The notes under the pieces: generated by a model | Told to the model about the DNA's origin: nothing | What the model saw: only the letters and a program-made list of their open reading frames with translations | The model's database searches: none | Assembly: GCA_017640685.1 (NCBI GenBank) | Contig: JAEPQF010000013.1 | Span: forward strand, 1-42,631 | Direction: 5' to 3' | Source of the DNA: Hyphomicrobiales bacterium | GTDB lineage: Bacteria > Pseudomonadota > Alphaproteobacteria > Rhizobiales > HXMU1428-3 | DNA length: 42,631 nt | Program-made: the position numbers and the translations under genes | Part shown: piece after piece, positions 1,427 to 41,597 of the stretch | How positions within the stretch are numbered: the first letter of the stretch is position 1 | Layout: every line of letters begins with the position of its first letter

Positions 1427-1430
1427 TATT

Positions 1431-1893: not shown

Positions 1894-1925
1894 AAAATGG
1901 ATTCGCTTAGAAAATAGTTAGATAA

Positions 1926-2360
1926 ATGAGCCGATTATTAGCACTTTTTATAATTTTTTCTATTTTAGTGGGCTCGTGCTGCACGGGTGCCTTTTCTGCT
2001 TTTGCGTTTAACTCTCATCATCAAAACAGCCTTACTACTGAGAATATTGAGGTGCATTCTGATGATCACGATCATGCTAATCATCATGAGCACGCGAAAA
2101 ACATTTCCGAGCATTCAAACGAACCTTGCGATCATAGTTCACTTGATTGCAGCCAACAAATTGCAATTAATTCGTTTGCTGATAAATTCTCAAAAAATCT
2201 GATTTTTAGTGGTAAAAAAGAATCTAAATTTTATACTGTTATAAATTCTCAAAATTTACATACATATTTTAAACAGTCACAATTTACTGATCGTTTAATA
2301 GAGTCTCAGTCAATAATTTTTCTTCCCGTTCTTGATCTAACAAGACGGTTGCGGCTCTAA
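1926..2360 (+). CDS. CzcI-like exported His-rich protein
   Basis: This 144-residue protein has an N-terminal hydrophobic signal (about residues 3-27), then a strongly His/Asp/Glu-rich stretch (HSDDHDHANHHEHAK) and Cys-containing motifs (CDHSSLDC). This layout, together with a following TolC-like gene, resembles CzcI, a small periplasmic protein encoded ahead of czcC in Cupriavidus. It probably binds metal in the periplasm. No strong ribosome site precedes the ATG. The C-terminal half (about 80-144) has no recognisable motif. The family assignment rests on layout rather than on close similarity. Confidence 0.55.
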   Translation: MSRLLALFIIFSILVGSCCTGAFSAFAFNSHHQNSLTTENIEVHSDDHDHANHHEHAKNISEHSNEPCDHSSLDCSQQIAINSFADKFSKNLIFSGKKESKFYTVINSQNLHTYFKQSQFTDRLIESQSIIFLPVLDLTRRLRL

Positions 2361-2477
2361 TTTTCTTCTCCTGAAAAATTTCAATATCATTCGACCGGTG
2401 ATTATTAAAATCATTGGCAGAACATTAACCTGCAAATTTCATTTATCGTACTCGATAAATTGCTCCGGGGGAACGCT

Positions 2478-2729
2478 GTGCTACGACCGATAATATTAAG
2501 CCTTATCGCCACGATTGGCTTATCAGGCTGTTTAAGACAAACACCAGAAATACATTTACCTGTGGGTCATCCTGCTGATCCAGGAGCAAGAACTGGTGCG
2601 CCAATAAAAATTACAAAAGCATTAAGGAACGAATTCAACGATGTGAAACCAGAACTTGGCAAAACAAAGCGAGAGCTTATAGAAACACCATCAAATGATC
2701 ATTCTGGTCATCAGATGCATAAAAATTGA
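2478..2729 (+). CDS. Small lipoprotein with His/Met-containing tail
   Basis: I chose the GTG at 2478 as start because it is preceded by GGGGGAAC and yields a proper lipoprotein signal ending in the lipobox LSGC (Cys18). A TTG at 2460 in the same frame is less likely. The mature 66 residues are hydrophilic and end in HSGHQMHKN, a possible copper-binding tail. It is 17 bp before the TolC-like lipoprotein gene and probably in the same operon. No family recognised; small lipoproteins of this sort are found beside copper oxidases in other proteobacteria (from memory). Confidence 0.65.
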   Translation: MLRPIILSLIATIGLSGCLRQTPEIHLPVGHPADPGARTGAPIKITKALRNEFNDVKPELGKTKRELIETPSNDHSGHQMHKN

Positions 2730-2746
2730 GCCTGTAGGAGGAACAA

Positions 2747-4171: not shown

Positions 4172-5598
4172 TGGACAGATCTCGAAGACATTTTTTAACC
4201 ACATCTGGCATTGCAGTAGCAAGCGCTACATTGGCAAGTAAAGACCTATTGGCACAAGAAAAGCATGATATGAGAGGCTCCCATTCAGGTCATAAAATGG
4301 AAATGGGACAGAAAAACAAACCGCTTGCAAAAGTGACCGGGTCTGGAAAATACAACACACCGAGGGGGAATGAGTTTTATGCACGGTCAGTTGATCCTGA
4401 TGAAACTTATAATCCTGGAGAACCCATTAAAGATTACACACCTGTTGTTGTTCCAAATGGAAGCACACTGCCATTTAAAATTGTTGATGGTATTAAAGTA
4501 TTTCACCTGATCGCCGAAGAAGTATTCCACGAATTTGCCCCTGGGCTTAAGTCACATTGTTGGGGGTATAACGGACAGGTGCATGGTCCTGTTATTGAAG
4601 CTGTTGAAGGCGATAATATTAGGATTTATGTTACCAATAAATTAGAGGTGCCAACGACAGTACATTGGCATGGCTTAATTTTACCTATGGGAATGGACGG
4701 TGTCGCAGGGCTTACACAACGCACAATTAAACCGGGTGAAACTTTTAAATATGAGTATAAGCTAATTCAACACGGCACCTTTATGTATCACTCACATAAA
4801 GACGCCATGACTCAGGAAGGTATGGGATTAATGGGCATGTTTATTGTTCATCCCCGCAAACCAAAAAGAGAACGTCCCGATCGTGATTTTGTACTTTTGA
4901 TGTCTGAGTGGGACATAAAACCTGGGACATACAGACCAGACACAAGTGTAGCCAGTGGATATAATACGCTTACTCTAAATGCTAAAGTTTTCCCCGGAAC
5001 GGAAGCTCTCGTCTGCAAGTTGAACGAAAAAATACGCATCCGGGTTGGTAATTTATCAGCCATGGATCATCATCCTTTCCATTTACATGGTTACGCGTTC
5101 AAGGTCACAGAAACAGACGGGGGTGAAATTCCTGAATCTGGGCAGTGGCCTGAAGTCACAGTTTTGGTCTCTGTTGGTCAGACGAGAAATATTGAATTCG
5201 TCGCGGATAACCCAGGTGATTGGGCAATGCATTGCCATATGACCCATCACACGATGAACCAAATGGGGCACGGCTTACCAAATATGGTTGGTATTAAGAC
5301 AACTGGACTTGATCAAAAGGTTGGTGATTTATTGCCCGGCTATATGACCATGGGTGCAAATGGCATGGGAGATATGGGCAAGCATGCACAGCATATGGAC
5401 ATGCCCGAAAATAGCATCCCTATGGTGGGCACCGAGGGGCTCCACGATTACATCGGCATGGGCGGTATGTTCACTGTGTTTAAAGTTCGTGAAAACATTG
5501 AAAACTATGACGACCCCGGCTGGTACAAACCACCTAGTGGAACTTTGGTAGGACCTGCCACTAAGGAAGAATTAAATCGTGATGGAATTAAAACATAG
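4171..5598 (+). CDS. Tat-exported multicopper oxidase
   Basis: This 475-residue protein starts with a twin-arginine signal (SRRHFLTT, residues 4-11). The four copper-binding segments of multicopper oxidases are present in order: HWHG (165-168), HSH (207-209), HPFHLHG (301-307) and HCHMTHH (354-360). The His-Cys-His in the last provides the type 1/type 3 centre. Met/His-rich stretches occur near the start (HSGHKMEMG) and after residue 390 (Met-Gly-His-rich), typical of cuprous oxidases and copper-resistance oxidases. It probably oxidises Cu(I) in the periplasm. It overlaps the TolC-like gene by one base and is followed by a cytochrome c, a possible electron partner. Confidence 0.93.
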   Translation: MDRSRRHFLTTSGIAVASATLASKDLLAQEKHDMRGSHSGHKMEMGQKNKPLAKVTGSGKYNTPRGNEFYARSVDPDETYNPGEPIKDYTPVVVPNGSTLPFKIVDGIKVFHLIAEEVFHEFAPGLKSHCWGYNGQVHGPVIEAVEGDNIRIYVTNKLEVPTTVHWHGLILPMGMDGVAGLTQRTIKPGETFKYEYKLIQHGTFMYHSHKDAMTQEGMGLMGMFIVHPRKPKRERPDRDFVLLMSEWDIKPGTYRPDTSVASGYNTLTLNAKVFPGTEALVCKLNEKIRIRVGNLSAMDHHPFHLHGYAFKVTETDGGEIPESGQWPEVTVLVSVGQTRNIEFVADNPGDWAMHCHMTHHTMNQMGHGLPNMVGIKTTGLDQKVGDLLPGYMTMGANGMGDMGKHAQHMDMPENSIPMVGTEGLHDYIGMGGMFTVFKVRENIENYDDPGWYKPPSGTLVGPATKEELNRDGIKT

Positions 5599-5607
5599 GA
5601 GGTAACT

Positions 5608-6006
5608 ATGAATAAATATGTATGGTTTGTACTTCTGGGATTTATTACCATCACGGTATTTTTCATATCTCTGTCTTTTAAAAATAAAGATCTAGCTGTG
5701 CAAGTAAAATTACCTAAACAGTTTTCCAGAACTGCTATCGAGGGAGGAAAACTTTTCAATAAAAACTGTATGGTTTGCCATGGGAAATATGGTAGTGGCA
5801 CCGAAAAAGGACCACCGCTTATTCATAAATACTATGAACCCAATCACCATTCTGATCGTTCATTTTTTCTTGCTGTTAAAAACGGTGTCAGACCTCATCA
5901 TTGGCAATTTGGGATGATGCCACCGATCAAAGGTGTAACCCGTTCAGACGTAGAAAAAATCATTCCTTATATAAGGGAGATACAAAGAGAAAATGGAATT
6001 TTCTAG
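5608..6006 (+). CDS. Membrane-anchored monoheme cytochrome c
   Basis: This 132-residue protein has one N-terminal membrane segment (about residues 4-23) and one heme-binding CMVCH motif (54-58). The FGMMPP segment near residue 102 supplies the likely axial methionine. It would sit on the periplasmic face. Its position between a multicopper oxidase and a cupredoxin suggests electron transfer linked to copper oxidation, although no substrate is proven. AGGAGGT precedes the ATG, and the gene lies 9 bp after the oxidase stop. Confidence 0.88.
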   Translation: MNKYVWFVLLGFITITVFFISLSFKNKDLAVQVKLPKQFSRTAIEGGKLFNKNCMVCHGKYGSGTEKGPPLIHKYYEPNHHSDRSFFLAVKNGVRPHHWQFGMMPPIKGVTRSDVEKIIPYIREIQRENGIF

Positions 6007-6069
6007 AAAAATCCAGTCAATGACGAATGGATAGTTACTTTAACAAATCAATATATTAAGAGGTATAAA

Positions 6070-6624
6070 ATGATTACCCCACTGACCCAATTTACAAAAC
6101 CTGTCATTTCACTAATTTCAACGACAGTATTAACTATAGCACTAACCTCACCTATTCATGCTGCTGGCAAAGGTCATGATGGTCATCACAGTCATGTTAA
6201 TAAAAAAGCACATATGACCGCTGGTGGTCAGCCTGGCAAAGCTACTGAGATAGATCGTACGATAGAAATTATTGCCACCGATGATTTAAAATTTAGTCAC
6301 TCTTCATTGGAAGTTAAAGATGGTGAGACCATTAAATTCGTTCTTATAAATAAAGGTGAGAGTGCTCACGATTTTACAATTGGAACTCCTGAAATTCAGG
6401 TTGCTCATCAAAAAGAAATGTCAAAAATGATGGAAGCTATGGATTCACATGAAGGCCATAAAATGGAGCATAATGATCCGAACGCGTTGTTTCTAAACCC
6501 TGGTGAGAAAAAAGAATTGATCTGGAAATTTAAAAACACAGCCATGCTTGAATTTGGTTGCAATGTGCCTGGTCATTATCAAGCAGGAATGAAAGGTAAC
6601 TTTAAATTTAAAGGCATGAAATAA
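6070..6624 (+). CDS. Cupredoxin-domain periplasmic copper protein
   Basis: This 184-residue protein has a signal peptide ending near SPIHAA (about residue 32) and a His-rich linker (HDGHHSH). The plastocyanin/azurin-like fold spans about 64-184. Type 1 copper ligands are visible as H100 (AHDF), C164, H169 and M174 in GCNVPGHYQAGM. An extra Met/His-rich loop (about residues 112-135, with DSHEGHKMEH) is inserted between the first and second ligands and may bind additional copper. It probably carries copper or electrons in the periplasm alongside the upstream oxidase and cytochrome. Confidence 0.88.
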   Translation: MITPLTQFTKPVISLISTTVLTIALTSPIHAAGKGHDGHHSHVNKKAHMTAGGQPGKATEIDRTIEIIATDDLKFSHSSLEVKDGETIKFVLINKGESAHDFTIGTPEIQVAHQKEMSKMMEAMDSHEGHKMEHNDPNALFLNPGEKKELIWKFKNTAMLEFGCNVPGHYQAGMKGNFKFKGMK

Positions 6625-6645
6625 TCAAAAAAATTACAAAATTGT

Positions 6646-6675
6646 TTGAGGGTTTCTTCCCAGAGAACCGTATTA
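6646..6675 (+). promoter_or_regulatory. Candidate ECF-sigma promoter before the 6706 gene
   Basis: TTGAGGG (6646-6652), a 16-nt spacer and CGTATTA (6669-6675) match the site before the cnrYXH-like operon exactly in both elements and in spacing. It lies 30 bp before the ATG of a small exported protein and may also serve the Met-rich protein gene beyond. Confidence 0.75.
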
Positions 6676-6705
6676 GTCACATAACCAAACTAAAAGGAGT
6701 TCGAA

Positions 6706-6891
6706 ATGAGTAAGACCTTTAAATCTATACTGCTTGCTGTTTTAATTTTAGTTCCAACGCATGCTTTTGCAGCAGTGAATGCTCAGGATAGCAATAAGTT
6801 TTTAAATCAAAATATCATTTTAGATCATAACCTTGTGGTTAAAGAAGATCCTGCGTCTGATCTTGATACCATGACAGATGACGGAGGTTAA
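6706..6891 (+). CDS. Small exported acidic protein, unknown
   Basis: This 61-residue protein has a signal peptide (hydrophobic 7-18, likely cleavage after AFA near residue 22). The mature part is about 39 residues, acidic at its end (DPASDLDTMTDDGG). AAAAGGAG precedes the ATG, and a candidate CnrH-type promoter lies just upstream, which makes real expression likely. I recognise no family. It has no Cys or His cluster, so metal binding would have to involve Asp or Glu. Confidence 0.6.
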   Translation: MSKTFKSILLAVLILVPTHAFAAVNAQDSNKFLNQNIILDHNLVVKEDPASDLDTMTDDGG

Positions 6892-6908
6892 TTCGCCTCA
6901 GACTTCTC

Positions 6909-6955
6909 TTATCTCCTCTCAGGCTTATATCTGATCTCAAGCAGAGAGGAGATAA
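6909..6955. repeat. Perfect 12-bp inverted repeat between 6706 and 7015 genes
   Basis: TTATCTCCTCTC (6909-6920) and GAGAGGAGATAA (6944-6955) are perfect inverted copies around a 23-nt loop. The T-run expected of a terminator is absent, as the sequence goes on AATATAATGCG. It may be a transcript stabiliser, an attenuator or an operator acting on the downstream Met-rich protein gene. Confidence 0.5.
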
Positions 6956-7014
6956 ATATAATGCGTTATGACTAAAAATTATTTTTTCGACCTACAATAA
7001 AATGGAGAATAGAT

Positions 7015-7395
7015 ATGAAAAAAATACTGAAAACCTTACTGATTGCTACAGCACTAACATCACCGATAGCAGCTAATGCCGGTAACCACAATCATAGTAA
7101 AGGTCAAATGGGTTCTACGGACATGTGTGTAACTGGAGAAAAATGCCCAATGGCAGATCAAATGGGCAAGATGCAGACCAAGATGGGCAGTATGATGACT
7201 CATATGCAGGGCATGATGGAGATGATGAAAGACCCCGATATGAAAAAGAAAATACAGAAAATGCACGTTGATATGGGAAGTATGATGCAACACATGCAAC
7301 AGATGCACAAACAAATGGGAACCATGATGGGAGGAAAAGGCATGATGCATGAGCATAATAATAAAAATAAAGAGAATGGAAAACACAAACACTAA
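7015..7395 (+). CDS. Exported Met/His-rich copper-binding protein
   Basis: This 126-residue protein has a signal peptide (residues 1-22, ending in ANA). Its mature part is packed with Met (MQGMMEMMKDPDM, MQQMHKQMGTMMGG) and ends in a His/Lys-rich tail. Two Cys lie in CVTGEKC near residue 40. Met-rich arrays of this kind bind Cu(I) in periplasmic copper proteins, so a buffering or sequestration role fits. GGAG precedes the ATG. It shares no clear family with CopZ or PcoE beyond composition. Confidence 0.7.
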   Translation: MKKILKTLLIATALTSPIAANAGNHNHSKGQMGSTDMCVTGEKCPMADQMGKMQTKMGSMMTHMQGMMEMMKDPDMKKKIQKMHVDMGSMMQHMQQMHKQMGTMMGGKGMMHEHNNKNKENGKHKH

Positions 7396-7410
7396 GCAGG
7401 GAAGCAAGCT

Positions 7411-7671
7411 ATGCAGCATGACCATGAACATTATCACAAACCAGAGCATAAGGAAAAATGGTGGCAAACCAATACCGGCATGCTGCTGGTCGTTCTTTTT
7501 GCCGTGGGTGGATACTATCTCATTAAAGCACATGGGGCGCATATTGCAGAAAACTGGTTCCTGCTGATTTTGCTACTGTGCCCACTGATGCATGTATTTA
7601 TGCATGGAGGGCATGGTGGCCATGGGAAGCATCGCCAACATGATGATAACGATAATGACAGGGAGGCGTAA
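7411..7671 (+). CDS. DUF2933 small His-rich membrane protein
   Basis: This 86-residue protein has a His-rich N-terminus (HDHEHYHKPEHKEKW), two membrane segments (about 25-40 and 48-63) and a tail with GGHGGHGKHR. The pattern corresponds to DUF2933 proteins, which are repeatedly found next to the methyltransferase and copper ATPase genes seen downstream. The function is unknown, but the His clusters suggest metal binding at the inner membrane. From here to 12.1 kb the DNA is visibly more GC-rich than the sequence before it, which points to a separately acquired block. Confidence 0.75.
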   Translation: MQHDHEHYHKPEHKEKWWQTNTGMLLVVLFAVGGYYLIKAHGAHIAENWFLLILLLCPLMHVFMHGGHGGHGKHRQHDDNDNDREA

Positions 7672-7673
7672 CC

Positions 7674-8321
7674 ATGCATGGAACAGAATCAGCTTACGGC
7701 TTATGGACATTGGTTATCATTAATTCGGCGATTTTTATCATCTTCGCCTTTAGTTTTTTCAAACCCCAGACCAAACGGGACTGGCGCTCATTCAGTGCGT
7801 TCTCGGCCTTTATTGTAGCATTGTTTGTAGAGATGTACGGCTTCCCGCTCACCATCTATCTGTTTTCAGGTTGGCTAACCGCCAACTATCCGGGGGTGGA
7901 TTTCCTCTCCCATGAAAACGGTCATTTGCTACATACGATTTTTGGATTCGAAGGGAATGCTCATTTTGACCCTTTGCACATAGCCAGCATTATTTTTATC
8001 GGCCTGGGCTTCATTATGCTCTCGGCAGCCTGGAATGTGCTCTATAAAGCACAGCGTGCCGGAAAGCTCGCAGTGACCGGGCTGTATGCCAAGATGCGCC
8101 ACCCGCAATATATCGGTTTTGTTGCCATTATGTTTGGCTTTTTGCTGCAATGGCCGACCATTATCACGGTGATTATGTTCCCGATATTGGTGGTGATGTA
8201 TTGGCGTTTAGCCAAAAAAGAAGAGCGTGATTCCAAAGAACGATTTGGCAAAGCGTGGGATGATTACAAGGCGCATGTTCCAGCCTTCATTCCAAAATGG
8301 AGCACCGTATTTAGCAACTAA
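7674..8321 (+). CDS. ICMT-like membrane methyltransferase family protein
   Basis: This 215-residue protein has about five membrane segments and the C-terminal signature of the isoprenylcysteine carboxyl methyltransferase / PEMT-like family: MRHPQYIGF near residue 141, then EERDSKERFGKAWDDYKA near 182-199. These motifs bind S-adenosylmethionine in the family. The bacterial substrate is unknown, and its repeated linkage with copper genes suggests a role in metal stress. The start codon is 2 bp after the DUF2933 stop, preceded by GGGAGG. Confidence 0.8.
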   Translation: MHGTESAYGLWTLVIINSAIFIIFAFSFFKPQTKRDWRSFSAFSAFIVALFVEMYGFPLTIYLFSGWLTANYPGVDFLSHENGHLLHTIFGFEGNAHFDPLHIASIIFIGLGFIMLSAAWNVLYKAQRAGKLAVTGLYAKMRHPQYIGFVAIMFGFLLQWPTIITVIMFPILVVMYWRLAKKEERDSKERFGKAWDDYKAHVPAFIPKWSTVFSN

Positions 8322-8336
8322 CAAAGGAGGTCTATT

Positions 8337-8510
8337 ATGGATCAGGTAAAAGAAAATCAAATAAATGAGCAAGCAGCATCCGGTGGGTGCTGCTGCAGCT
8401 CAAAAAAGCAGGCAAAGCCGGAAGTGGAAGTAAAGAAAGAAACCAAACCTTCCTGCTGCACAAAAACAGAAGATGAAAAAGAGTACCCGATGAGCAATAC
8501 GGCGGATTAA
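8337..8510 (+). CDS. 57-residue Cys-rich metallothionein-like peptide
   Basis: A short gene with a strong ribosome site (AAAGGAGG, 7 nt before ATG) encodes 57 residues with a CCC cluster at 18-20, a CC pair at 40-41 and a Lys/Glu-rich remainder. There is no signal peptide, so it should be cytoplasmic. Its place inside a copper operon, 15 bp after the methyltransferase and 19 bp before the permease, supports a role in binding Cu(I) and perhaps handing it to the ATPase further on. It is not a classic metallothionein sequence. The call rests on composition and context. Confidence 0.7.
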   Translation: MDQVKENQINEQAASGGCCCSSKKQAKPEVEVKKETKPSCCTKTEDEKEYPMSNTAD

Positions 8511-8529
8511 TACTAAAACAGGAAACACT

Positions 8530-9855
8530 ATGGATCATTCAAAGCATGGCAGATCGGCAAATTATAAGAAAAACAGCTTAACCGTTGTCGGTGCGGTATC
8601 CATGGGTACCGGCGTGATGATTGGGGCGGGTATTCTGGCACTTACCGGGCAAATGGCCGAGCTGGCAGGCTCGCTCTTTCCGGTTGTGTTTCTTGCCGCT
8701 GCCATTGTGACAGCGTTTAGTGCCTATTCTTATGTGAAAATGTCCAATGCCTTTCCATCCGCTGGTGGCATTGGCATGTTTTTGGAAAAAGCCTATGGGC
8801 GCACCACGATGACGGCTGCCAGTGCGCTTCTCATGTATTTTTCGATGGTGATTAATGAAAGCCTGGTGGCGCGAACCTTTGCCACGTACAGCACCCAGCT
8901 ATTTGATGCCGAGCCAGCTGGCTGGGTGATTCCGGCTTTAGGTGTAGGGCTGCTATTCTTTGCATTTTTGATTAATATTGCCGGCAACCGGATGATTGGA
9001 GCATTTTCGCTGATCATGGCCTTTATCAAGATCGGCGGCATTGCGGTGTTCGCGTTGGCCGGTTTGTGGCTCTCCGGTCTTAATTTTGAAGTCAGCCCTG
9101 TCAATACCACGGAAACCTCCGTTGAAGGGTTCCTGGCTGCCATGGCGTTGGCCATCCTTGCCTATAAAGGTTTTACCACCATCACCAATAGCGGTTCGGA
9201 GATTATTGATCCTCATCGCAATGTGGGCAGAGCCATTATCATTTCCATTGCTATTTGTGTGGTGGTGTATGTGTTGGTTGCACTGGCAGTAGCAGGCAAT
9301 TTAAGCCTGGGAGAGATTATTGCTGCCAAGGATTTCGCCTTAGCACAAGCCGCACGCCCGGCCTTTGGTGAATTTGGCCTATGGTTTACGGTGATATTGG
9401 CGATTGTTGCCACCGTCTCCGGCGTAATTGCCAGCGTGTTTGCGGTATCGCGGATGTTGGCCATGCTCACCGATATGAAACTGGTGCCACACAGCCACCT
9501 TGGTATGCCAGGAGATGTGCAAAAACATACGCTGGTCTACACGGTGGTGCTGGCCATGTTCCTCACGGTCTTTTTTGATTTGAGCCGCATCGCCTCCCTG
9601 GGTGCTATCTTCTATATCACCATGGATATCGCCGTGCATTGGGGCGTGTTCCGCTATTTGCGCAAAGAGATTAACGCCAACGGATTCATCCTGATTTCTG
9701 CCATCATCTTTGATGTGGTAGTGCTGGGCGCATTCCTAATGGTGAAAGCACGCACCGATATGATGGTGATCTATGCTGCCATTATCGGCATGGCATTGAT
9801 TTTCATCGGCGAACGCATTTTCTTACACAGACAATATCAAAACCAGGAGAGTTAA
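8530..9855 (+). CDS. APC-family permease
   Basis: This 441-residue protein has about twelve hydrophobic membrane segments. It begins with the APC-superfamily signature GTGVMIGAGILALTGQ (about residues 27-42), and YKGFTTITNSGSEIIDPHRN near 215-234 corresponds to the conserved cytoplasmic segment of amino-acid/polyamine permeases. The substrate cannot be told from sequence. Its location between a Cys-rich peptide and a copper ATPase, with its TAA directly abutting the ATPase ATG, suggests a role in metal stress, for example cysteine, histidine or polyamine uptake (speculative). Confidence 0.85.
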   Translation: MDHSKHGRSANYKKNSLTVVGAVSMGTGVMIGAGILALTGQMAELAGSLFPVVFLAAAIVTAFSAYSYVKMSNAFPSAGGIGMFLEKAYGRTTMTAASALLMYFSMVINESLVARTFATYSTQLFDAEPAGWVIPALGVGLLFFAFLINIAGNRMIGAFSLIMAFIKIGGIAVFALAGLWLSGLNFEVSPVNTTETSVEGFLAAMALAILAYKGFTTITNSGSEIIDPHRNVGRAIIISIAICVVVYVLVALAVAGNLSLGEIIAAKDFALAQAARPAFGEFGLWFTVILAIVATVSGVIASVFAVSRMLAMLTDMKLVPHSHLGMPGDVQKHTLVYTVVLAMFLTVFFDLSRIASLGAIFYITMDIAVHWGVFRYLRKEINANGFILISAIIFDVVVLGAFLMVKARTDMMVIYAAIIGMALIFIGERIFLHRQYQNQES

Positions 9856-12114
9856 ATGGCACATTCACACCAGCACAAAGCGGCAAAGAAAGAAGATCAT
9901 TCATGCTGCGAAACACATGACCACCATCACGCCTCCGGCGATAAGCCGGTCAAAGGTGGCAAGCATGATAAGGTGCCGGAGGGATTTAGCGGCACGGTTT
10001 ATACCTGTCCAATGCACCCGGAAGTGCGCAACCCTGGGCCGGGGTCATGCCCGATCTGCGGTATGGGGCTTGAGCCGGAAAAGGCTGCTATTGGTGAGGA
10101 TGAAGGGCCGAATCCGGAGCTGGTAGATTTTACCCGCCGCTTTTGGGTGGGTACTGTTTTAACCATCCCATTGCTGATTTTAGCGATGTCACCCTTTGTT
10201 GGGCTAACCGCCATCAGAGAGTTTTTCGGTGAGCGCACCACGCTTTGGATAGAGTTGGTGTTAGGCACACCGGTGATCCTATGGTCGGGCTGGCCGTTTT
10301 TTGTGCGCGGATATCATTCCTTCCGCACCATGAATCTCAATATGTTTAGCCTGATCGGCATGGGTACGGGTGCGGCGTATATTTTCAGTGTAGTGGCGGT
10401 GCTGGTGCCAGATATTTTCCCCGATGGGTTCCGTGACGCAGAAGGCCATGTCGGTGTCTATTTTGAAGCGGCGGCGGTGATTGTCACGCTGGTGCTTCTT
10501 GGGCAAATTATGGAGCTGCGTGCGCGTGAACGCACCGGATCAGCCATTAAGGCATTACTTGATATGGCAGCAAAAACCGCCCGTGTGATCCGCGAAGATG
10601 GCACGGAAGAGGAAATCCCGCTTGAAGATGTGCAGGTAGGTGACAAATTGCGCGTGCGTCCAGGCGATAAGGTGCCGGTCGATGGCAAGGTGCTGGATGG
10701 CCGTTCTTCGGTCGATGAATCAATGATCTCCGGTGAGCCAGTACCGGTTGAAAAGGTCGCCGGGGATGCTGTCACCGGTGCTACCATCAACGGCACGGGT
10801 AGTTTAATCATTGAAGCCACACGGGTGGGCGCAGATACCATGCTCTCACAAATCGTGGATATGGTTGCCAATGCGCAAAGATCGCGTGCGCCGATTCAGA
10901 AATATGCCGATATGGTCGCCGGGTATTTTGTACCCGTGGTGATTGTTGTCGCTATTTTATCCTTTATTGGCTGGGCAATGTGGGGGCCAGCTCCGGCGCT
11001 GTCTTACGGTTTGGTAGCAGCGGTGGCAGTGCTTATTATTGCATGCCCATGTGCGCTTGGGCTTGCCACACCAATGTCGATCATGACCGCCACCGGGCGC
11101 GGAGCACAAGCCGGGGTGTTGATTAAAAATGCCGAAGCGCTGGAGCGTTTTGAAAAAGTGGACATATTGATTGTCGATAAAACTGGCACGCTCACCGAAG
11201 GAAAGCCAAAACTGGTGGCGGTGTTGCCCGAAGAAGGGCATGACGAGGCAGAGGTGCTTCGCCTGGCAGCCTCATTAGAACGCGGCTCAGAACATCCTTT
11301 GGCAGAAGCGATTGTGCGCGGCGCAGAAGAGCGCAAGGTTGACATGGCCGATGCCACGGATTTTGAAGCGGTTACCGGCAAAGGCGTAAAAGGTGTGGTC
11401 GATGGCCATGCGGTAGCACTTGGCAATGCCGCGCTTATCTCCGATATGGGTCTGGATAGCGGCAAGCTGGTTGAAACCGCCAATGCGCGGCGTGATGAAG
11501 GTGAAACCGTGATGTTCGTGGTGCTTGATGACGCAATTGCCGGGCTGGTCAGCGTGGCTGATCCGGTCAAGGAAACCACCCCCGCAGCCCTAAAAGAACT
11601 GCATGATCTGGGCTTTCGGATTATCATGGCGACCGGCGATAATGAACGCACGGCAAAAGCGGTGGCGGCGCGTTTGGGTATTGATGAGATTCGCGCCGAT
11701 GTGCTGCCGGAAGATAAAGCCCGAATCATTAAAGAGCTTCAAGACCAGGGTTTGAAAGTTGCCATGGCCGGTGATGGGGTCAATGACGCACCCGCATTAG
11801 CGCAGGCCGATGTAGGAATTGCCATGGGAACCGGCGCAGATGTCGCTATTGAAAGCGCAGGCTTTACCCTGATCAAAGGCAATCTTGATGGTATTGTCCG
11901 TGCTCGCCGCCTGGTGCGTGCGACCATGCGTAACATCCGACAGAATCTATTCTTTGCGCTGGTCTATAATGCTGCCGGTGTGCCGGTAGCGGCAGGGCTT
12001 TTATTCCCGATGTTTGGCATATTAATCAGCCCAATGTTTGCAGCCTTTGCTATGAGCGCATCTTCCGTCTCGGTAGTAATGAATGCGCTGCGCCTGCGGC
12101 GGGTGAAAATTTAA
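9856..12114 (+). CDS. copA: Cu+-exporting P1B-type ATPase
   Basis: This 752-residue ATPase has a His/Cys-rich N-terminus ([11 protein letters not shown]) followed by the heavy-metal-binding motif CPMHPEV (51-57) and [10 protein letters not shown] (65-74), instead of CxxC MxCxxC domains. Catalytic motifs are in place: SGEP in the actuator domain, CPCALG in the sixth membrane segment (Cys at about 397), phosphorylated Asp in DKTGT (D441), TGDN, and [10 protein letters not shown] (about 639). YN in the seventh segment and MSASS in the eighth mark the Cu+ subgroup (P1B-1). It pumps Cu(I) from cytoplasm to periplasm. The nearby oxidase can then oxidise it. Confidence 0.93.
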
Positions 12115-31477: not shown

Positions 31478-32602
31478 ATGACATGGAATTGGCAGCAGAA
31501 AAATTGGCCTATATTTGCTTATGATGCGCGTGTGCTCTCGGATTTAGAAGATCAGTTCTTGCATGGTTCCGGTGTGCTTATGGGCGCGCTCAAGCATATG
31601 AATGATGAAGATCGGCAAAATCTCACAATTGAGCTTATTAGCACAGAAGCGCTGAAAACCTCTGAAATTGAAGGGGAGATTTTAAACCGCACTTCCGTTC
31701 AAGCATCTATTCGCCGTAATTTTGGATTGGAAACCGATGGACGGCGCATCCCCCCTGCTGAACGCGGTATCGCTGAGATGATGAGCGATCTATATCAAAG
31801 CTACGATACATCATTATCGCATGCAAAATTGTTTGAATGGCATAAAATGCTCACCAGTGGTCGGCGTGATCTCACTGATATTGGGCGTTACCGCACACAT
31901 GAGGATGCCATGCAGGTCGTCTCAGGTGCGGCGCATGACCCTAAAGTGCATTTTGAAGCACCGCCTTCACATACAATGCATAAGGAAATGGAGCCTTTTA
32001 TTGGATGGTTCAATCAATCCGGTGTTCATAGAAAAGGACAGAGCGCACTTCCTGCTTTAACGCGTGCAGGTTTGGCGCATTTGTGGTTTGTCTGTATACA
32101 TCCCTTTGAAGATGGCAATGGTCGAATTGGCCGCGCCATCAGTGAAAAAGCATTATCCCAAAATCTTGGGCAGCCGACTTTGTTATCATTATCTCAAACC
32201 ATTCAATCGGGAAGAAAATCTTATTATCAAGCGCTTGAAGATAATAACAAAGACCTCGAAATTACTGAGTGGCTTTTCTATTTTGCCAATACGGTTTTAG
32301 AGGCGCAAAAACGTTCTCAGGATTTGATTGATTTTCTGATTGGGAAAGTCCAATTTTATGATCGTTTGCGGGGCAAATTGAACAAGCGACAAGACAAGGT
32401 TATTGCCCGGATGTTCAAAGAAGGGCTGGACGGTTTTAAAGGCGGTTTAAGTGCAGAAAATTATATTTCTATTACCGGTACATCTCCTGCCACCACCACG
32501 CGTGATTTGGCCGATCTTGTCGAGAAGGGTGCTTTACGGAAAACGGGAAAATTACGCCATACACGCTATTGGCTCAATATTGATGTTGAAGCCAAGAGAT
32601 AG
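31478..32602 (+). CDS. Fic-domain protein with N-terminal inhibitory motif
   Basis: This 374-residue Fic protein has the full catalytic motif HPFEDGNGRIGR (208-219) for transfer of AMP (or another phosphate group) to target proteins. The inhibitory helix motif TSEIEG (61-66) identifies the class II self-inhibited form. The C-terminal 70 residues form a winged-helix-like domain (ENYISITGTSPATTTRDLADL, then RYWLN), so it could repress its own promoter, consistent with the dyad over its -10. Target is unknown. It may be stress-related or a toxin-like regulator. Start at 31478 is chosen although no ribosome site exists. Confidence 0.92.
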   Translation: MTWNWQQKNWPIFAYDARVLSDLEDQFLHGSGVLMGALKHMNDEDRQNLTIELISTEALKTSEIEGEILNRTSVQASIRRNFGLETDGRRIPPAERGIAEMMSDLYQSYDTSLSHAKLFEWHKMLTSGRRDLTDIGRYRTHEDAMQVVSGAAHDPKVHFEAPPSHTMHKEMEPFIGWFNQSGVHRKGQSALPALTRAGLAHLWFVCIHPFEDGNGRIGRAISEKALSQNLGQPTLLSLSQTIQSGRKSYYQALEDNNKDLEITEWLFYFANTVLEAQKRSQDLIDFLIGKVQFYDRLRGKLNKRQDKVIARMFKEGLDGFKGGLSAENYISITGTSPATTTRDLADLVEKGALRKTGKLRHTRYWLNIDVEAKR

Positions 32603-32694: not shown

Positions 32695-32964
32695 TTATGA
32701 AGGCTGGTTATCTGGCGTCGTAACTTCTGGCGCTTCGTTCTCAGCAGCTCTGGCTTTATCGAAAAAACGCACAGTCAATCTACCGTCAACCGGGTAAGCC
32801 TGACATTGTAGATCATAGCCTTTGCCGTCTTTGTGTTTCCAGCCCGCGCCCAAACGTGTCCATATGCTGGACTTGTCATCACCACGAGATTGCACTGTAT
32901 ACACAATCAGGTCAGGGTCTCTTCCGTTGCTTTTTTGTGTTTTTTGTTGATGTTCACTTGTCAT
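32695..32964 (-). CDS. Small hydrophilic plasmid-type protein, unknown
   Basis: This 89-residue protein has a polar N-terminus, a compact core (DLIVYTVQSRGDDKSSIWTR, then LGAGWKHKDGKGYDLQCQAY) and a Pro/Glu-rich tail. From memory, proteins with the core IWTRLGAGW occur widely on alphaproteobacterial plasmids and islands; no function is known to me. An upstream site is weak (AATGGAG). It faces fic convergently. Confidence 0.65.
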   Translation of the reverse strand: MTSEHQQKTQKSNGRDPDLIVYTVQSRGDDKSSIWTRLGAGWKHKDGKGYDLQCQAYPVDGRLTVRFFDKARAAENEAPEVTTPDNQPS

Positions 32965-33386: not shown

Positions 33387-36300
33387 GTGCAGTATATCTT
33401 GGGGAAAGAGACTTGTGACGCCTGTATCAGCTGCCAAATGCAGCTAGAATATAAGACACGCGCCGTTATACGGCTCATACAGACAAACACGATTCCCAGG
33501 CGGGATGACTTGAACGAAAATCTTGAACAAAAACCAACTTCCACGGAATTGACCAGTGGTGCGGGGTTCACATACGAAGATATCGTAGTCGCCTATTACC
33601 TAGCGCATCTGCTTCGTCACGAGCGTGCGGCAGGCCAAACCGGTATTGTCACCAGTGTCGCCATTCAACGTCTAGGTCATGGTCATCCAATGGATGATGT
33701 CATCGTAGGTCTCGACGATGGAGGAACAAAAAAATCGCTTGAGCTTCAAGTCAAACGTTCCTTCACCATCAGCGGTGCCGATAAGCAATTTAAAGAGATA
33801 ATTGCTGCTATTGTAAAGACACAAGCTTTAAACACCTTCGTCAAAGATACCGACGCAAGCGGGTTTGTTATTGAGCATGTCACGGGTTCAACCTTCCGAA
33901 GCCTTTCAAGACTGATAAAAAAGGCGAAGGCGAGCCCTGACGCCGAAGACTTCGAACAATATTTCGCATCAACCGGCTCAGCAGGAACCAAAGACAAGGA
34001 TCTGCGACAAGTTTTACTGTCTCTTACAAAATTCACTAATCTGGAAGAGGAAGTTAGTTTTTATCGTAATTTCGCTGCACTCCATCTAACTGGATTGGAA
34101 GAAGGAGGTGCCCTCCGCCTTGAGATTATCAATCGTTTGCAAGAAATAGTTGCGAACAATGTTGATGGTCAGGGCATCCTACTATTTGACCGCCTTTGCC
34201 GCATTGCCCGTGAAGGGGCAGCTAGCGCAGCCAAATGGACGCGTTCATCTTTGCTTGAACAACTGAGAAACACAGTGCAATTAAAAATTGCACCGTGTTT
34301 CAGCGAAGACATCAACCGGCTTAATACTGCATCAATTGATGCGCTTAATGACATCTCCGAAACCGTCGATGATTTTCATGTCGCACGAGATAGTTTGCAA
34401 ACAGAAGTCATGCAGAAGCTTGACAAGCATCGTATTGTTTCCATTGGTGGTCTACCGGGGTGTGGTAAATCCGCCGTATTGAAGAAGTTCGCAGTCAATG
34501 CAGCGCAGGCGGGCCCGATCCTTTTTCTCAAGAATGACCGACTGCAAGGGACAAGCTGGATAACTTTTGCAACATCGCTAGGTATTCGTCACACTAACGC
34601 AGCTGACCTTTTAACCGAAATCAGCGCTTCTGGTACTCCAATTCTTTTTATTGATGGCATTGATCGCATCCGGCCAGACCAAAAACACATTATTACCGAT
34701 CTCATCCGTGCCATTGAGAGCGACCCAAGTCTCCAACACTGGAAAGTTCTCGCCAGCTCTCGTGATCAGGGTCTAGAAGCCTACCGAAATTGGTTTCCCA
34801 AGTCGTTTTATTCCGAGACAGGCATGGGAAGTATTTCGGTTAAAGGATTTTCAGAGGAGGAGGCTAACCTCCTTGCAAAATCGAAACCCAACCTTCAACG
34901 CCTTCTTTTCAATCCGAGTCAGCCTGTAGTAGAAATCGCACGGCGTCCATTTTTTGTGGCAATTCTTGTCAAAACTATTTCGCATGAATCCGAGCCTAAA
35001 ACCGAGGCCGATTTGATTAACGCGTGGTGGTTGCGAGCTGGACACAATGCGATTGCTGAAACTGTACTGCAACGTCAACGCGCTCTTATCAATCTTGTTG
35101 AAAAGGGTGTGCGCAATCTCGGAAAGGAAATCTTAGTCAACGATCTCAAGCCGGAGACTGTAGCGCAACTGACTGCGCTTGAGACAGATCATATTGTACG
35201 TCTCGAGCGTGCAGGTGCGATGGTATCATTCACACACGATATATTTTTTGAGTGGGTTTTCTTCCGCCGTCTCATTGAACTTGGCAACAAATGGCCTTCA
35301 GCACTAACCGCTGCCGGCGAACCGCCATTGCTCGGACGCGTGGTGGGGTTAATGGCTCAGGATGCGCTCACCGAAACTGGGAGATGGAGCGCCGGTTTCG
35401 CACAACTTAAGAACTCTTCGCTGCGTACTCAATGGCAGCGAGAATGGCTTACCGCCCCACCGTTTACAAATGCCTTAGAAAACGCAATTGACGAGTTCAC
35501 AGAACATGTCGAGGCCAACGACTTTAGCTTGTGCGATAAGCTATTGGTATGGTTTCAGGCACAGCACACTGTGCCAAACCCTATTATTATGCAACGGGGT
35601 ACCGAAATCAAAGGCATGGAGACTATCCGAATGGCTGACCTCATGGGGTGGCCTTCAGACTTTGTAGCATGGAAACGTTTCATCGATTGGATCATCGCAC
35701 GCCATCAAACACTACCCGCGCGACTTGTTCCGCAAGCAGTCAAGATTTTCTGCGTTTGGCAGAACGCCCTCTCTGACCACAAGAACAAATGCTCGACAGA
35801 AATATTGGTGACGTGCAGCACGTGGTTACTCGATCTCGAGGACGAAATCTATCCTGAGGAGCTTCAGCGTGATTACGGAAAATGGAACGTCCTAGGTCAC
35901 GAAGCGCAGCAGAGCCTAGCAACAGAGCTGCGTTCCATCATCCTCCGCTCGGCTCGTGGATCCCCCGAGTTCGCTGTGGCTCTCTTTGATCGTGCTGCTA
36001 AAAATGAGCGTATACTTCGGTCTGCATTCGACGATCTAATGGATTTTACTCCGATAATGTCGGAAGTCGCCCCTGAAGCGGTTGAAAAGGTCGCTAAAGC
36101 CAAACTTCTACAAGAGTTGCCACAGGAGACATATGACCGCCTGCGCCATGAAGAAGAAGAGCAGGCTAAGGAGCGCGAAAAGATTAGAGCGATTCCAGAA
36201 GAGAAACGCACACGTCAGCAAAATATGGCTTTATCATCGGTCAGCTTCCCGACAAGCATGTCTGATTTCGAGTTGGATGACGTCGGCCTTGATACCCACA

Positions 36301-38810
36301 ATCATTATTTTCACCCTTCGTCAGCACTACACGAACCATTTGCTAGTCTGCTAGCCAAGAGCCCCGATGTAGGCCTTCGCCTCATCAAGGAGCTTACGAA
36401 CCATGCAACAACTGGATGGCGTCAAATCCATGAATTCCGCCAAGAACAAAGCACACCGATCCCTATCGTACTAGATTTTCCTTGGGGTCGGCAGGAATTT
36501 TGGGGAGATTGGCACGTCTTTGGTTGGGGGCTTGGAATGCTGGGATCTAACCTACTCCAGTGCGCGTATCTTTCAGTCTCTTATTGGGCGTTCAAGGAAA
36601 TTGAAAAAGGCCGTTCCACCAGCGACGTAATTAAGGAAATTCTTGAAGGTAATGAGTGCTACGCATCGCTAGGGCTTTGCTTGAGACTTGCCATCGAAAC
36701 ATTTGAGGTCTCTGAGACAACGTTACCCATCGTCACATGTCAGCGCCTGTGGAACCATGATATGACGCGCTTCGTTCAAGAGTCACAGAAAGATATCGAC
36801 CTGTTCGGTTTCGATTTTCTCTCTAAACTCACTGGTGAAAAAGCTAAAGCGAAAGAATTTCTCGACAGCCGAGAATATCGCAAACGCGATGTAATAGAGC
36901 TCGCTATGCGCTTTGCCATTAACAGCGACACAATCCTGCGGGATCGCTTCAAAAAGTCACTTGAGACATTCCCGGACAACCTTCCGTACATCATCGAAGA
37001 GGAACGAAAATCCCCAGAGCTAACGCAAGAACTAAGGGAGAAAGCTGAGATCTGGTCCGGTCTCGGCAATATCGAAAATTATCGGCAGTATGAAATGCAA
37101 AACGATCAAGTTGCAATTCATTACGAGGCTCCAAACCCCTGGCCTGAAGCTATGCAACAGAAAACCGCCAAAGCCACGGAGTCACTGAGCCAGATGGGTG
37201 TACTCAACTGGTTACAAAAATACTTGAAAGAAGGCAAACCTGACGAAACCTGGACATTATCAGAGGCCATTGAGTATGCAAAAAAGCATGACAGAGATGA
37301 CCTTTTCGATGAGCGTGCTGATATTGGACCCCATATAGTTCAAAGTAGCGTCTCCTCTATCGCAACGTGTGTTATCCGTTTTTCTGAAAACGATTCACCA
37401 GATCGCCCGTGGGCGTGGACTGTGGTGGATCGTATTATAAAAATGCGTGAACTCTCAGATTTTCATGGTGCAAAAATTCCCTGGCACCCTGCCTTCAATG
37501 CTATTGACGCATTGTTCCACGATCGCAAGAGCGCAACACCCTATTCAGAATCTGCGGCAAGCCTTATCCAACTCGCGAGCCATCAAAATGAGGATGTGCA
37601 ACTTGCGGCTTTCAAAGCGCTTTATTTTGATCCAGACCCTCATGTAAAGTGGGTAGCCGCCCAGTTTGCTTTTGAGCTCGCGCACTACATTTCTCCGACT
37701 CAAGATGAGCAAACCTTCGAACGTGATGACACAGAAGATCGTAATGCTCGCGAAGAAGCCCTAGCAAAGGCACTACTTGCCCTCACTGATGAACATGAAT
37801 GTAAGTTTGAGCTTTTACCCGCTGCTTGGGTAAAGGTATCAAATCCAAACCATCAGAATGAAGACTATTGGACTGCCCCCAAACGTTCCTTCGACGGTCA
37901 GTATGCCGCCAAGCTTTTTAAGCAATTACCACTTGAGGAGTGGTGCCAGTCAGATGTTTATCGTCCGAGAATTGAACTATTCTTAATTGATCTCGCACGC
38001 TGGACCTCTGAGCAGCTGATGCCCTCATGGGACGATAAAAAACAACATCGGAGACAAACCGACCTTATCGAATGGGAGCACGCCTTAGGCACCATGTTTG
38101 CCCGCGTCTTACCTTTCTTCGATCTGCAATGGGTTCGAGAACACTTTATTCAGCCGTTCTCGCAGAACGATGAGGAGGCATTGTGCGTACTAACACAGTT
38201 TGCAAATGACATCGTAACACGTCATGTATTTGATGCTAGAGACATCCCCGCCAATGTGTTACCCACTCTGGAAGACTGCATACAACGGGTGATCGACGAC
38301 AATATATTTAATCCAAACGTCTATCGTGCAGGCGAAGTTCATGGCTTCGATATGCCCAGACTCATCAAAGCACTTTTGTTTGTCAATGTAGAAGGGGACT
38401 GTCCGGGTTCCGCGCGGTTCGTTAACGACGACTGGAGCGACATCGCAATCATCATGCCTCTCGTAACAAAGCTAGTTACAGCAACCGGTTGGTCACCCTT
38501 CGTTATGGAAAACTTTCTGACCCTGTGCGAAAAAGCCGGAGCATCCTATCCAATTGATGCGTTCATTGAACAGGCATTGCCAGTTTTGGACTCAATTGAA
38601 CACGCGAGGGGCAGTTGGGTAGGAACGTCATTACCACCTCGGCTTGCGGGCATCATCCAGTGCCTAGCCGAAGCGAACTATCCTCTCAAAGCAAATCGCG
38701 CGCGGGAATTATTAAGGCTTATTGATGCTATGATCGACCTTGGTGACCGCCGCAGTGCGGCGCTAGAACAAGACGAGATATTTCGTCGAGTACAAGACTT
38801 AGTTCCTTGA
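33387..38810 (+). CDS. Giant STAND NTPase with N-terminal Cap4/Mrr-like nuclease (Avs-like)
   Basis: This protein has up to 1807 residues. The N-terminal part (about 57-230) resembles Cap4/DUF4297 or Mrr-type PD-(D/E)XK nucleases: FTYEDIVVAYYLAHLL, then HPMDDVIVG (D103/D104) and LELQVKRS (Q121-x-K123). A P-loop NTPase follows: Walker A GLPGCGKS (355-362), Walker B ILFIDGIDRI (419-428), an ASSRD sensor-like strand and a winged-helix-like end (VSFTHDIFFEW). The long C-terminus (about 650-1807) is helical, with HEAT-like stretches near 1390-1430. This order (nuclease, STAND ATPase, solenoid sensor) is that of Avs anti-phage proteins. Start is GTG 33387 or, more likely by its AGGCGGG site, TTG 33510. 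Confidence 0.8.
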   Translation: MQYILGKETCDACISCQMQLEYKTRAVIRLIQTNTIPRRDDLNENLEQKPTSTELTSGAGFTYEDIVVAYYLAHLLRHERAAGQTGIVTSVAIQRLGHGHPMDDVIVGLDDGGTKKSLELQVKRSFTISGADKQFKEIIAAIVKTQALNTFVKDTDASGFVIEHVTGSTFRSLSRLIKKAKASPDAEDFEQYFASTGSAGTKDKDLRQVLLSLTKFTNLEEEVSFYRNFAALHLTGLEEGGALRLEIINRLQEIVANNVDGQGILLFDRLCRIAREGAASAAKWTRSSLLEQLRNTVQLKIAPCFSEDINRLNTASIDALNDISETVDDFHVARDSLQTEVMQKLDKHRIVSIGGLPGCGKSAVLKKFAVNAAQAGPILFLKNDRLQGTSWITFATSLGIRHTNAADLLTEISASGTPILFIDGIDRIRPDQKHIITDLIRAIESDPSLQHWKVLASSRDQGLEAYRNWFPKSFYSETGMGSISVKGFSEEEANLLAKSKPNLQRLLFNPSQPVVEIARRPFFVAILVKTISHESEPKTEADLINAWWLRAGHNAIAETVLQRQRALINLVEKGVRNLGKEILVNDLKPETVAQLTALETDHIVRLERAGAMVSFTHDIFFEWVFFRRLIELGNKWPSALTAAGEPPLLGRVVGLMAQDALTETGRWSAGFAQLKNSSLRTQWQREWLTAPPFTNALENAIDEFTEHVEANDFSLCDKLLVWFQAQHTVPNPIIMQRGTEIKGMETIRMADLMGWPSDFVAWKRFIDWIIARHQTLPARLVPQAVKIFCVWQNALSDHKNKCSTEILVTCSTWLLDLEDEIYPEELQRDYGKWNVLGHEAQQSLATELRSIILRSARGSPEFAVALFDRAAKNERILRSAFDDLMDFTPIMSEVAPEAVEKVAKAKLLQELPQETYDRLRHEEEEQAKEREKIRAIPEEKRTRQQNMALSSVSFPTSMSDFELDDVGLDTHNHYFHPSSALHEPFASLLAKSPDVGLRLIKELTNHATTGWRQIHEFRQEQSTPIPIVLDFPWGRQEFWGDWHVFGWGLGMLGSNLLQCAYLSVSYWAFKEIEKGRSTSDVIKEILEGNECYASLGLCLRLAIETFEVSETTLPIVTCQRLWNHDMTRFVQESQKDIDLFGFDFLSKLTGEKAKAKEFLDSREYRKRDVIELAMRFAINSDTILRDRFKKSLETFPDNLPYIIEEERKSPELTQELREKAEIWSGLGNIENYRQYEMQNDQVAIHYEAPNPWPEAMQQKTAKATESLSQMGVLNWLQKYLKEGKPDETWTLSEAIEYAKKHDRDDLFDERADIGPHIVQSSVSSIATCVIRFSENDSPDRPWAWTVVDRIIKMRELSDFHGAKIPWHPAFNAIDALFHDRKSATPYSESAASLIQLASHQNEDVQLAAFKALYFDPDPHVKWVAAQFAFELAHYISPTQDEQTFERDDTEDRNAREEALAKALLALTDEHECKFELLPAAWVKVSNPNHQNEDYWTAPKRSFDGQYAAKLFKQLPLEEWCQSDVYRPRIELFLIDLARWTSEQLMPSWDDKKQHRRQTDLIEWEHALGTMFARVLPFFDLQWVREHFIQPFSQNDEEALCVLTQFANDIVTRHVFDARDIPANVLPTLEDCIQRVIDDNIFNPNVYRAGEVHGFDMPRLIKALLFVNVEGDCPGSARFVNDDWSDIAIIMPLVTKLVTATGWSPFVMENFLTLCEKAGASYPIDAFIEQALPVLDSIEHARGSWVGTSLPPRLAGIIQCLAEANYPLKANRARELLRLIDAMIDLGDRRSAALEQDEIFRRVQDLVP

Positions 38811-39000: not shown

Positions 39001-39021
39001 CTTATTGTGAAGGGTATACTT

Positions 39022-39279
39022 ATGGCAATGATTAAAAAAAGCATCACTGTAACCGATCAGCAAGAAGCATGGATTCAATCTCAAATGAAGGCCGGCAATT
39101 ATGGTACTGACAGTGAACTCATCCGCGAAGCTTTACGTGAAAAACAAATGCGTATGGCTGAAATTGAAGTGATCCGGGCAAAGCTTATCGCCGGAGAGCA
39201 AAGCGGTTTTTCCGATTTAACACCTGAACAGATTCTTGAAAAATCCAAAGAACAATTAAGGAAAAATGGGAAACTATAA
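39022..39279 (+). CDS. parD: ParD-type ribbon-helix-helix antitoxin
   Basis: I placed the start at ATG 39022, preceded by AAGGG; a GTG at 39007 is less likely. The 85-residue product has a short beta strand and two helices at its start (KKSITVTDQQEAWIQSQMKA, then TDSELIREALREKQ), as in ParD/CopG-type DNA-binding antitoxins, and a C-terminal toxin-binding tail. It would neutralise the following toxin and repress the operon. The last 14 bases overlap the toxin gene, typical of coupled pairs. Such modules stabilise plasmids and islands. Confidence 0.88.
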   Translation: MAMIKKSITVTDQQEAWIQSQMKAGNYGTDSELIREALREKQMRMAEIEVIRAKLIAGEQSGFSDLTPEQILEKSKEQLRKNGKL

Positions 39280-39553
39280 ACTCACCCAAGAAGCTGAAGC
39301 TGATCTTATTCGCATTCATCAATGGGGTGTTGTTACCCATGGTGAGACTCAGGCTGATGACTATTATTGGCAATTGTTAAAGCGTTTTGAAGAACTGGCT
39401 GACTCCCCTCAACTTTACACTTGTGTTGATGATATTCGCAAAGGATACCGTCGCAGTGTCTGCGGTTCAGATAGCATTTATTATCGTATCGTAGACGGCA
39501 CCGTAGAGATCATAAGGATTTTAGGGCGGCAAGACCTTGATGACTGGCTGTAG
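39266..39553 (+). CDS. parE: ParE/RelE-superfamily toxin
   Basis: This 95-residue protein matches the ParE fold: YKLTQEAEADLIRIHQWG at the start, RRSVCGSDSIYYRIVDG in the core strands, and VEIIRILGRQDLDDWL at the end. Members typically poison DNA gyrase; the exact target of this one is unknown. It overlaps the antitoxin gene by 14 bp and appears intact. Confidence 0.88.
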   Translation: MGNYKLTQEAEADLIRIHQWGVVTHGETQADDYYWQLLKRFEELADSPQLYTCVDDIRKGYRRSVCGSDSIYYRIVDGTVEIIRILGRQDLDDWL

Positions 39554-40706: not shown

Positions 40707-41597
40707 ATGGCTAAACGAGATATTTACCAAGAGATTACAGACAAAATTATCAAGACGCTTGGACATATCGATCTTGATAATTTTCATGCGCCCTTTGGGG
40801 CGTTAGCTGCGCAAGGCATGCCGATCAACCCTGTAACCGATCATCATTATCAAGGCATTAATATCCCCTCCCTTTGGATCGATCAGCAAGAAAAAGGCTT
40901 CACCTCTTCGCACTGGGCGACCTTTAAACAATGGCAGGAACAAGGAGCGCAAGTTCGTAAAGGCCAGCAGGGTAGCCCGATTATTTTTTATAAAACATGG
41001 AACAAGATCGAAAACAACGAAGATGGCGAGGCGGAAGAAATTCAAATTCCTGTGCTGCGTTTTTATACCGTCTTTAATGCCAATCAAGTTGACGGTTATG
41101 AGCATCAAGATCGTTCTTGTATGAAGCAAAATGACCTTGTCACGCCTGTACAAAGCGCCGAGGATTTTTGCCAGAAAACAGAAGCCGACATAAGGCATGG
41201 TGAGAGCAAAGCCTATTACAACAGGTCTGGTGATTTTATTAACATGCCGCAGACTTGGGCGTTTTTTGATACGCAAAATTCAAGCGCGACTGAAAATTAT
41301 TATGCTGTTCTTTTTCATGAGCTGACCCATTGGACTGGGGCAAAACATCGCCTTAACCGCGACAAAGCAACATCACGCACCCAAGAACTTGAGAAATACG
41401 CCTTTGAAGAACTCATTGCAGAGCTTGGAGCTGCCTTTCTATGTGCCAAGCTCGGCATCACCCAAACACCGCGCGACGATCATGCCCGTTATTTAAAATG
41501 CTGGCTGCAAGCCTTGCAGAATGACAAGACCTTTATTTTTAAAGCCTCGGCGCAAGCTGCCAAGGCAATCGAATTTCTCGATAATTTGCAACCCTGA
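40707..41597 (+). CDS. ardC: ArdC-type antirestriction protein with zincin domain
   Basis: This 296-residue protein has an N-terminal ssDNA-binding ArdC-type domain (about 5-125: RDIYQEITDKIIKTLG, WATFKQWQEQGAQVRKGQQG) and a C-terminal metallopeptidase-like domain with HELTHWTG (204-211, an HExxH zinc site) and the downstream EELIAELGAAF glutamate helix (about 234-244). ArdC proteins protect incoming plasmid DNA from host restriction. It is preceded by TTGAGG and by the hairpin-rich region, and followed by a ParB-like gene, an order typical of plasmid leading regions. Confidence 0.92.
   Translation: MAKRDIYQEITDKIIKTLGHIDLDNFHAPFGALAAQGMPINPVTDHHYQGINIPSLWIDQQEKGFTSSHWATFKQWQEQGAQVRKGQQGSPIIFYKTWNKIENNEDGEAEEIQIPVLRFYTVFNANQVDGYEHQDRSCMKQNDLVTPVQSAEDFCQKTEADIRHGESKAYYNRSGDFINMPQTWAFFDTQNSSATENYYAVLFHELTHWTGAKHRLNRDKATSRTQELEKYAFEELIAELGAAFLCAKLGITQTPRDDHARYLKCWLQALQNDKTFIFKASAQAAKAIEFLDNLQP

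Follow-up and report, generated by a model that had tools for sequence, protein, structure and literature searches.

Introduction

Proteins of the Avs superfamily share a tripartite order, in which an effector is followed by a STAND NTPase and a C-terminal repeat sensor. In the case of EcAvs4, the TPR domain binds the stem, clip, and wing of the phage portal protein (PMC12847820), and the nuclease effectors of Avs1-4 kill by cleaving both phage and host genomes (PMC12931631). Ligands other than portal are also found among known Avs proteins, including Ksap1, and JADA for Avs5.

Here, we analyzed a single gene with this same order in a window of 42,631 nucleotides (the whole stretch of DNA examined). 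Its product is very probably a nuclease-STAND defence protein. The Avs-like architecture proposed in the original prediction was borne out by NACHT and Avs4 profile matches, a confident model of the N-terminus, and occurrence as a single gene.

Gene and domain organization

The ORF at 33387-38810 on the plus strand was intact, as predicted, and remained open without breaks over 1807 aa from a GTG start. The alignment of its relatives in plasmid records (tblastn) begins at ORF residues 38-47, and a TTG is present at the codon matching 33510 in the close relatives L019, L020, L027, and L040. For both reasons, TTG 33510 is most likely the true start, which would give a 1766-aa product, and all residue numbers below are counted from it. 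The motifs D103/D104, Q121-x-K123, GLPGCGKS, and ILFIDGIDRI were all found as originally quoted, the first two becoming D62/D63 and Q80-x-K82 after renumbering. The claim of a distinct codon usage was not supported: with an RSCU distance of 0.72, where the 15 window genes range from 0.66 to 1.37, the gene belongs to the least deviant ones. Its GC content is 0.48 versus a window mean of 0.43. Promoter and terminator scans performed no better than on shuffled sequence, and an Rfam search returned no RNA match. The features of the gene are listed in Table 1.

Table 1. Features of the nuclease-STAND gene in window coordinates, with residues counted from TTG 33510.
Feature	Residues	Position	Strand	Evidence
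CDS, most likely start TTG	1-1766	33510..38810	+	1766 aa + stop; mechanical ORF from GTG 33387
Predicted PD-(D/E)XK nuclease, Cap4/DUF4297/Avs3 type	11-160	33540..33989	+	AlphaFold model, VIA, Foldseek
Candidate catalytic Asp, start of core strand	D62-D63	33693..33698	+	56/56 conserved; strand 64-70 in model
Predicted catalytic Q-x-K, next core strand	Q80-x-K82	33747..33755	+	Q 56/56, K 55/56; strand 73-84 in model
Helical linker domain after nuclease	161-285	33990..34364	+	Model helices
NACHT-type STAND ATPase with helical and winged-helix parts	286-600	34365..35309	+	Pfam, hhalign
Walker A GLPGCGKS	314-321	34449..34472	+	G314, G317, G319, K320 56/56
Walker B ILFIDGIDRI	378-387	34641..34670	+	D382, D385, R386 56/56
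FTHDIFFEW, end of STAND module		35229..35255	+	H576, D577 56/56; Avs4 8dgf counterpart FITHDIYEEW
Helical solenoid, first part	601-919	35310..36266	+	hhalign to Avs4 E 1.1e-4; reversed/block-shuffled controls lower
Avs4-homologous sensor core	920-1340	36267..37529	+	Profile match 8dgf 769-1177, i-E 1.1e-10; hhalign 6e-18 to 1e-17
C-terminal solenoid and strongly conserved tail ..LVDLGDRRSAALQQSEAFR	1341-1766	37530..38807	+	Weak colinear Avs4 similarity

N-terminal nuclease

Pfam searches gave no match to the N-terminus. An AlphaFold model built on an alignment of 51 sequences, from which plasmid and genome-search rows were left out, reached a pLDDT of 86 and a pTM of 0.82; a single-sequence model of residues 1-643 (pLDDT 36) was not used. 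The model has the element order helix-strand-strand-strand-helix-strand of the PD-(D/E)XK core, with D62/D63 placed just before the strand at 64-70 and Q80-x-K82 within that at 73-84. The best VIA match was Avs3 (8dgc; Z 14.2, 211 residues, rmsd 4.1), followed by the Hachiman entry 8zue (Z 13.3), Cap4 (Z 13), LmuA (Z 12.5), and HerA-DUF4297 (Z 12.1), and these structural matches run across the linker to residue 259. Other restriction-type nucleases scored lower in the structure comparison (Z about 4-7), and the absence of a family from the VIA list was not counted as evidence. Foldseek matched Cap4 at E 6e-5, and antiphage nucleases top both lists. The predicted N-terminus thus has the restriction-endonuclease-type core that had been anticipated.

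Among profiles, PADLOC DUF626_VIII matched residues 12-266 and was also matched by 26 of the 27 members scanned (best E 3e-30). By hhalign, the N-terminus resembles that of PDC-M54A (E 8e-15) and has no sequence similarity to that of Avs4 (E 0.27). Mrr-like is a description of the N-terminus of Avs4 itself. Of the earlier term "Cap4/Mrr-like nuclease", the Cap4 part agrees with the Avs3 and Cap4 matches of the model, and the Mrr-like part fits the unrelated domain of Avs4. The residues conserved across the family indicate that the nuclease active site is intact.

STAND ATPase and solenoid sensor

The STAND region was matched weakly by Pfam NACHT (7e-5) and AAA families, and hhalign aligned it with Avs4 (1.9e-21) and PDC-M54A (8.9e-25). 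In a tree of STAND domains, the core family (19 rows, support 98/96), Avs4 (99/99), and PDC-M54A (97/99) formed separate supported clades with no resolved branching order among them, and the outlying relative L007 fell outside the core family clade.

When the lone protein was used as a phmmer query against PDB, no match was obtained. The family profile, in turn, matched Avs4 8dgf at 1.7e-23; the match consists of three stretches in colinear order, and the one in the sensor (930-1324) was the strongest. Against six Avs4 and Avs4-like sequences, hhalign aligned columns 284-1771 with 190-1577 (E 4e-38), and the solenoid sensor alone gave E 2.4e-22, while column-shuffled, block-shuffled, and reversed Avs4 alignments produced no comparable match to the sensor. 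The sensor core holds a conserved NHA..WRQ..TP..FPWG.Q.FWG block. An Avs2 protein, tried as a possible relative of the sensor, gave no comparable match, nor did the PDC-M54A sensor in a profile-profile comparison with the family sensor.

By these alignments the sensor is Avs4-type by descent, with remote similarity, and the original description of it as unfamiliar has to be given up. Membership in Avs4 proper is another matter. NCBIfam Avs4 (NF041815) was matched by all 27 members scanned, and the window protein scored 76 bits against a curated cut-off of 1500 bits; because of this score and its own STAND clade, the protein is placed outside Avs4 on sequence grounds.

Since the sensor appears to be Avs4-type, phage portal protein would be the expected ligand, and by analogy we give it an even chance of being so. 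The suggestion that the gene may recognize a phage protein is in keeping with this expectation, and that protein need not be a new one. It is a real possibility, short of likely, that the same machine works with another ligand, its Avs4-descended sensor now recognizing terminase, a different packaging or early protein, or more than one ligand. Over its final 430 residues the protein is barely Avs4-like (E 0.012, colinear, with a score above 25 of 25 block shuffles), the tail is highly conserved in the family, whose most conserved 40-aa stretch begins at residue 1721, and other Avs types bind diverse ligands; against this, the core at 920-1340 is clearly Avs4-like. More tentatively still, and with some doubt, the family may be an Avs type of its own, widespread and built by the stable joining of a Cap4/Avs3-like effector to an Avs4-descended sensor, the conserved tail being retuned to a non-portal ligand. 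If this is true, it would represent a new specificity of phage pattern recognition that is common in environmental Proteobacteria.

Distribution and conservation of the family

Relatives were found in 23 plasmid records by tblastn; six cover nearly the whole protein, and the most similar one shares 73% identity. A search for a nearly identical plasmid found none. No relative was detected by tblastn in phage records, and four viral contigs carry a family member. Among 398 sampled genomes of the host phylum, 10 had a match, counting the window's own genome. One pattern scan of approximately 85,000 one-per-species genomes confirmed 161 loci, of which 79 distinct ones were retained. Most of them are full length and belong to Alpha-, Beta-, and Gammaproteobacteria; isolated cases occur elsewhere, such as in Propionispira and Nitrospirota MAGs. 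Chance occurrence of the motifs is excluded by the full-length relatives at 30-77% identity in many genera. At present, the annotation of such relatives goes no further than 'ATP-binding protein', 'NACHT domain-containing protein', or hypothetical. In Bradyrhizobium sp. Leo170, a full-length copy (L040) is accompanied by a 762-aa ORF (L090:8983-11268) that matches the nuclease-STAND part only (residues 8-695).

In the aligned relatives, D62, D63, Q80, the Walker A G-x-x-G-x-G-K, D382, D385, R386, H576, and D577 were invariant (56 of 56), and K82 was present in all except one (55 of 56), so that the family carries the intact nuclease and ATPase sites typical of the Avs superfamily. Overall dN/dS against four relatives (71-77% identity) was 0.08-0.12; synonymous sites are saturated in places, and the ratio was low wherever measurable. 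These values indicate that the family is under purifying selection, with dN/dS about 0.1. The reading frame is interrupted in some copies from plasmids and genomes, through either decay or sequencing error, and one could imagine that the window gene is likewise a decayed, non-functional copy. With 1766 open codons, all catalytic residues in place, and such a low dN/dS, this is highly improbable.

Genomic neighborhood

As predicted, the gene stands alone between a plasmid-type gene, the small minus-strand ORF 32695-32964 upstream, and a toxin-antitoxin pair, ParD/ParE (39007-39553), downstream, with ParD as the next gene on the same strand. The window also encodes a relaxase, a NikA/MobC-like protein, a TraG/TraD coupling protein, site-specific recombinases, heavy-metal genes, Fic, and ArdC, and from this gene content the gene is judged to be carried on a mobilizable element. 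Such surroundings, with mobilization, anti-restriction, and toxin-antitoxin genes nearby and recombinases adjoining the relatives, would also suit a protein that detects conjugative or transducing DNA machinery as it comes in and guards its carrier element instead of acting against lytic phage. We regard this as unlikely, because all kinds of defence genes ride on such elements and the sensor is homologous to a phage-portal sensor.

A recurrent partner was sought in about 85 loci, and no neighbor family occurred in more than seven of them. The two commonest neighbor families resemble tyrosine and serine recombinases by sequence reading, in agreement with Pfam integrase/resolvase counts. This bears on the idea that the protein belongs to a multi-gene system like PDC-M54 and is inactive without a partner protein. 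Its N-terminal and STAND modules lie near those of PDC-M54A, whose partner gene overlaps it in L114 and L115, but no such recurrent gene accompanies the present family and its sensor is unlike that of PDC-M54A, which makes a partner-dependent system quite unlikely. PADLOC matches among the close neighbors of family members included Avs2 (L064), GajB-like helicases, a subunit of a type I restriction system, and a Wadjet JetD protein; counted without a background rate, they are no more than suggestive of a location in defence islands.

Several further genes were observed around the family. In the window, a heavy-metal cluster (1-12114; Metal_resist protein, sigma factor, outer-membrane efflux protein, multicopper oxidase, and P-type ATPase) lies on the same contig as the mobilization genes, a Fic-domain protein with DUF4172 (31478-32602) lies upstream of the nuclease-STAND gene, and an ArdC-type anti-restriction protein with a zincin-like metallopeptidase domain (40707-41597) lies downstream. 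In Brevundimonas vesicularis, a true Avs2 (996 bits, PADLOC Avs2; L064:14399-18910) directly adjoins a family member. A homologous 1554-residue gene sits beside family members in two genera (L007:13335-17999 and L024:4044-8705), with a possible third copy near L085. One copy has a weak AAA_16 match, and an ECK-type motif lies close to the N-terminus. The gene had no PADLOC match in L007 or L024 and may be another nuclease-STAND defence gene. Upstream of a further member, L026:3677-8629 encodes a helicase of 1651 aa that carries an MTES_1575 restriction-endonuclease domain at its C-terminus and shows GreA/GreB C-terminal similarity.

Proposed mechanism and significance

Taken as a whole, we consider it fairly probable that this is a single-protein Avs-type gene on a mobilizable element that provides portal-triggered, DNA-cutting abortive defence. 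Its parts point to the mechanism that is standard for Avs proteins. During phage assembly, the solenoid would grip a portal protein monomer, as in the homologous sensor of EcAvs4. Portal binding would release the STAND module for ATP binding and oligomerization, oligomerization would bring the nuclease domains together, and the nucleases would next cleave the double-stranded DNA of both phage and host, aborting the infection. The predicted nuclease and ATPase steps draw on sequence and model evidence, and the ligand, oligomerization, and abortive outcome would be as in homologous proteins. The mosaic build yields a concrete testable prediction, namely that a sensor of portal type is coupled to a nuclease of Cap4 type. 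Because the family lies outside the curated Avs4 model and carries generic annotation, surveys of defence genes that use current profiles will probably overlook it or give it a wrong name.

Comparison with known systems

Compared with Avs4 (AVAST type 4; EcAvs4, 8dgf, NF041815), the protein has a homologous, colinear STAND and solenoid sensor and is likewise encoded by a single gene, but the N-terminal nuclease of Avs4 is unrelated in sequence and the STAND domains form separate clades. With Avs3 (AVAST type 3; 8dgc) it shares the fold of the N-terminal nuclease, whereas no Avs3 profile match was found in 27 members at E 0.01 and the sensor is Avs4-like. The PADLOC candidate PDC-M54A has a homologous nuclease and STAND (E 9e-25) but a different sensor, its profile matching the window protein at residues 205-591 only; moreover, where its overlapping partner gene would be expected, no partner is adjacent here and ParD comes next. 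Cap4/DUF4297 nucleases (CBASS Cap4, HerA-DUF4297, Lamassu LmuA) have the nuclease fold in common with the protein, yet they work with SAVED, HerA, or SMC-type partners, in contrast to the STAND-solenoid sensing expected here; no Pfam SAVED match was obtained at E 1, and STAND follows the nuclease. The PADLOC DUF626_VIII profile (474 positions) corresponds to the N-terminal part only, without STAND-solenoid.

Because STAND and sensor align with Avs4 while the Avs4 N-terminus is unrelated, the protein is, on sequence and model evidence, a mosaic of a Cap4/Avs3-like nuclease, a STAND ATPase, and an Avs4-type sensor. This build indicates recombination of effector and sensor modules among Avs proteins. 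Judged by its homologs, the family is a widespread and so far unnamed branch, and none of the profiles searched covers the mosaic as a whole.
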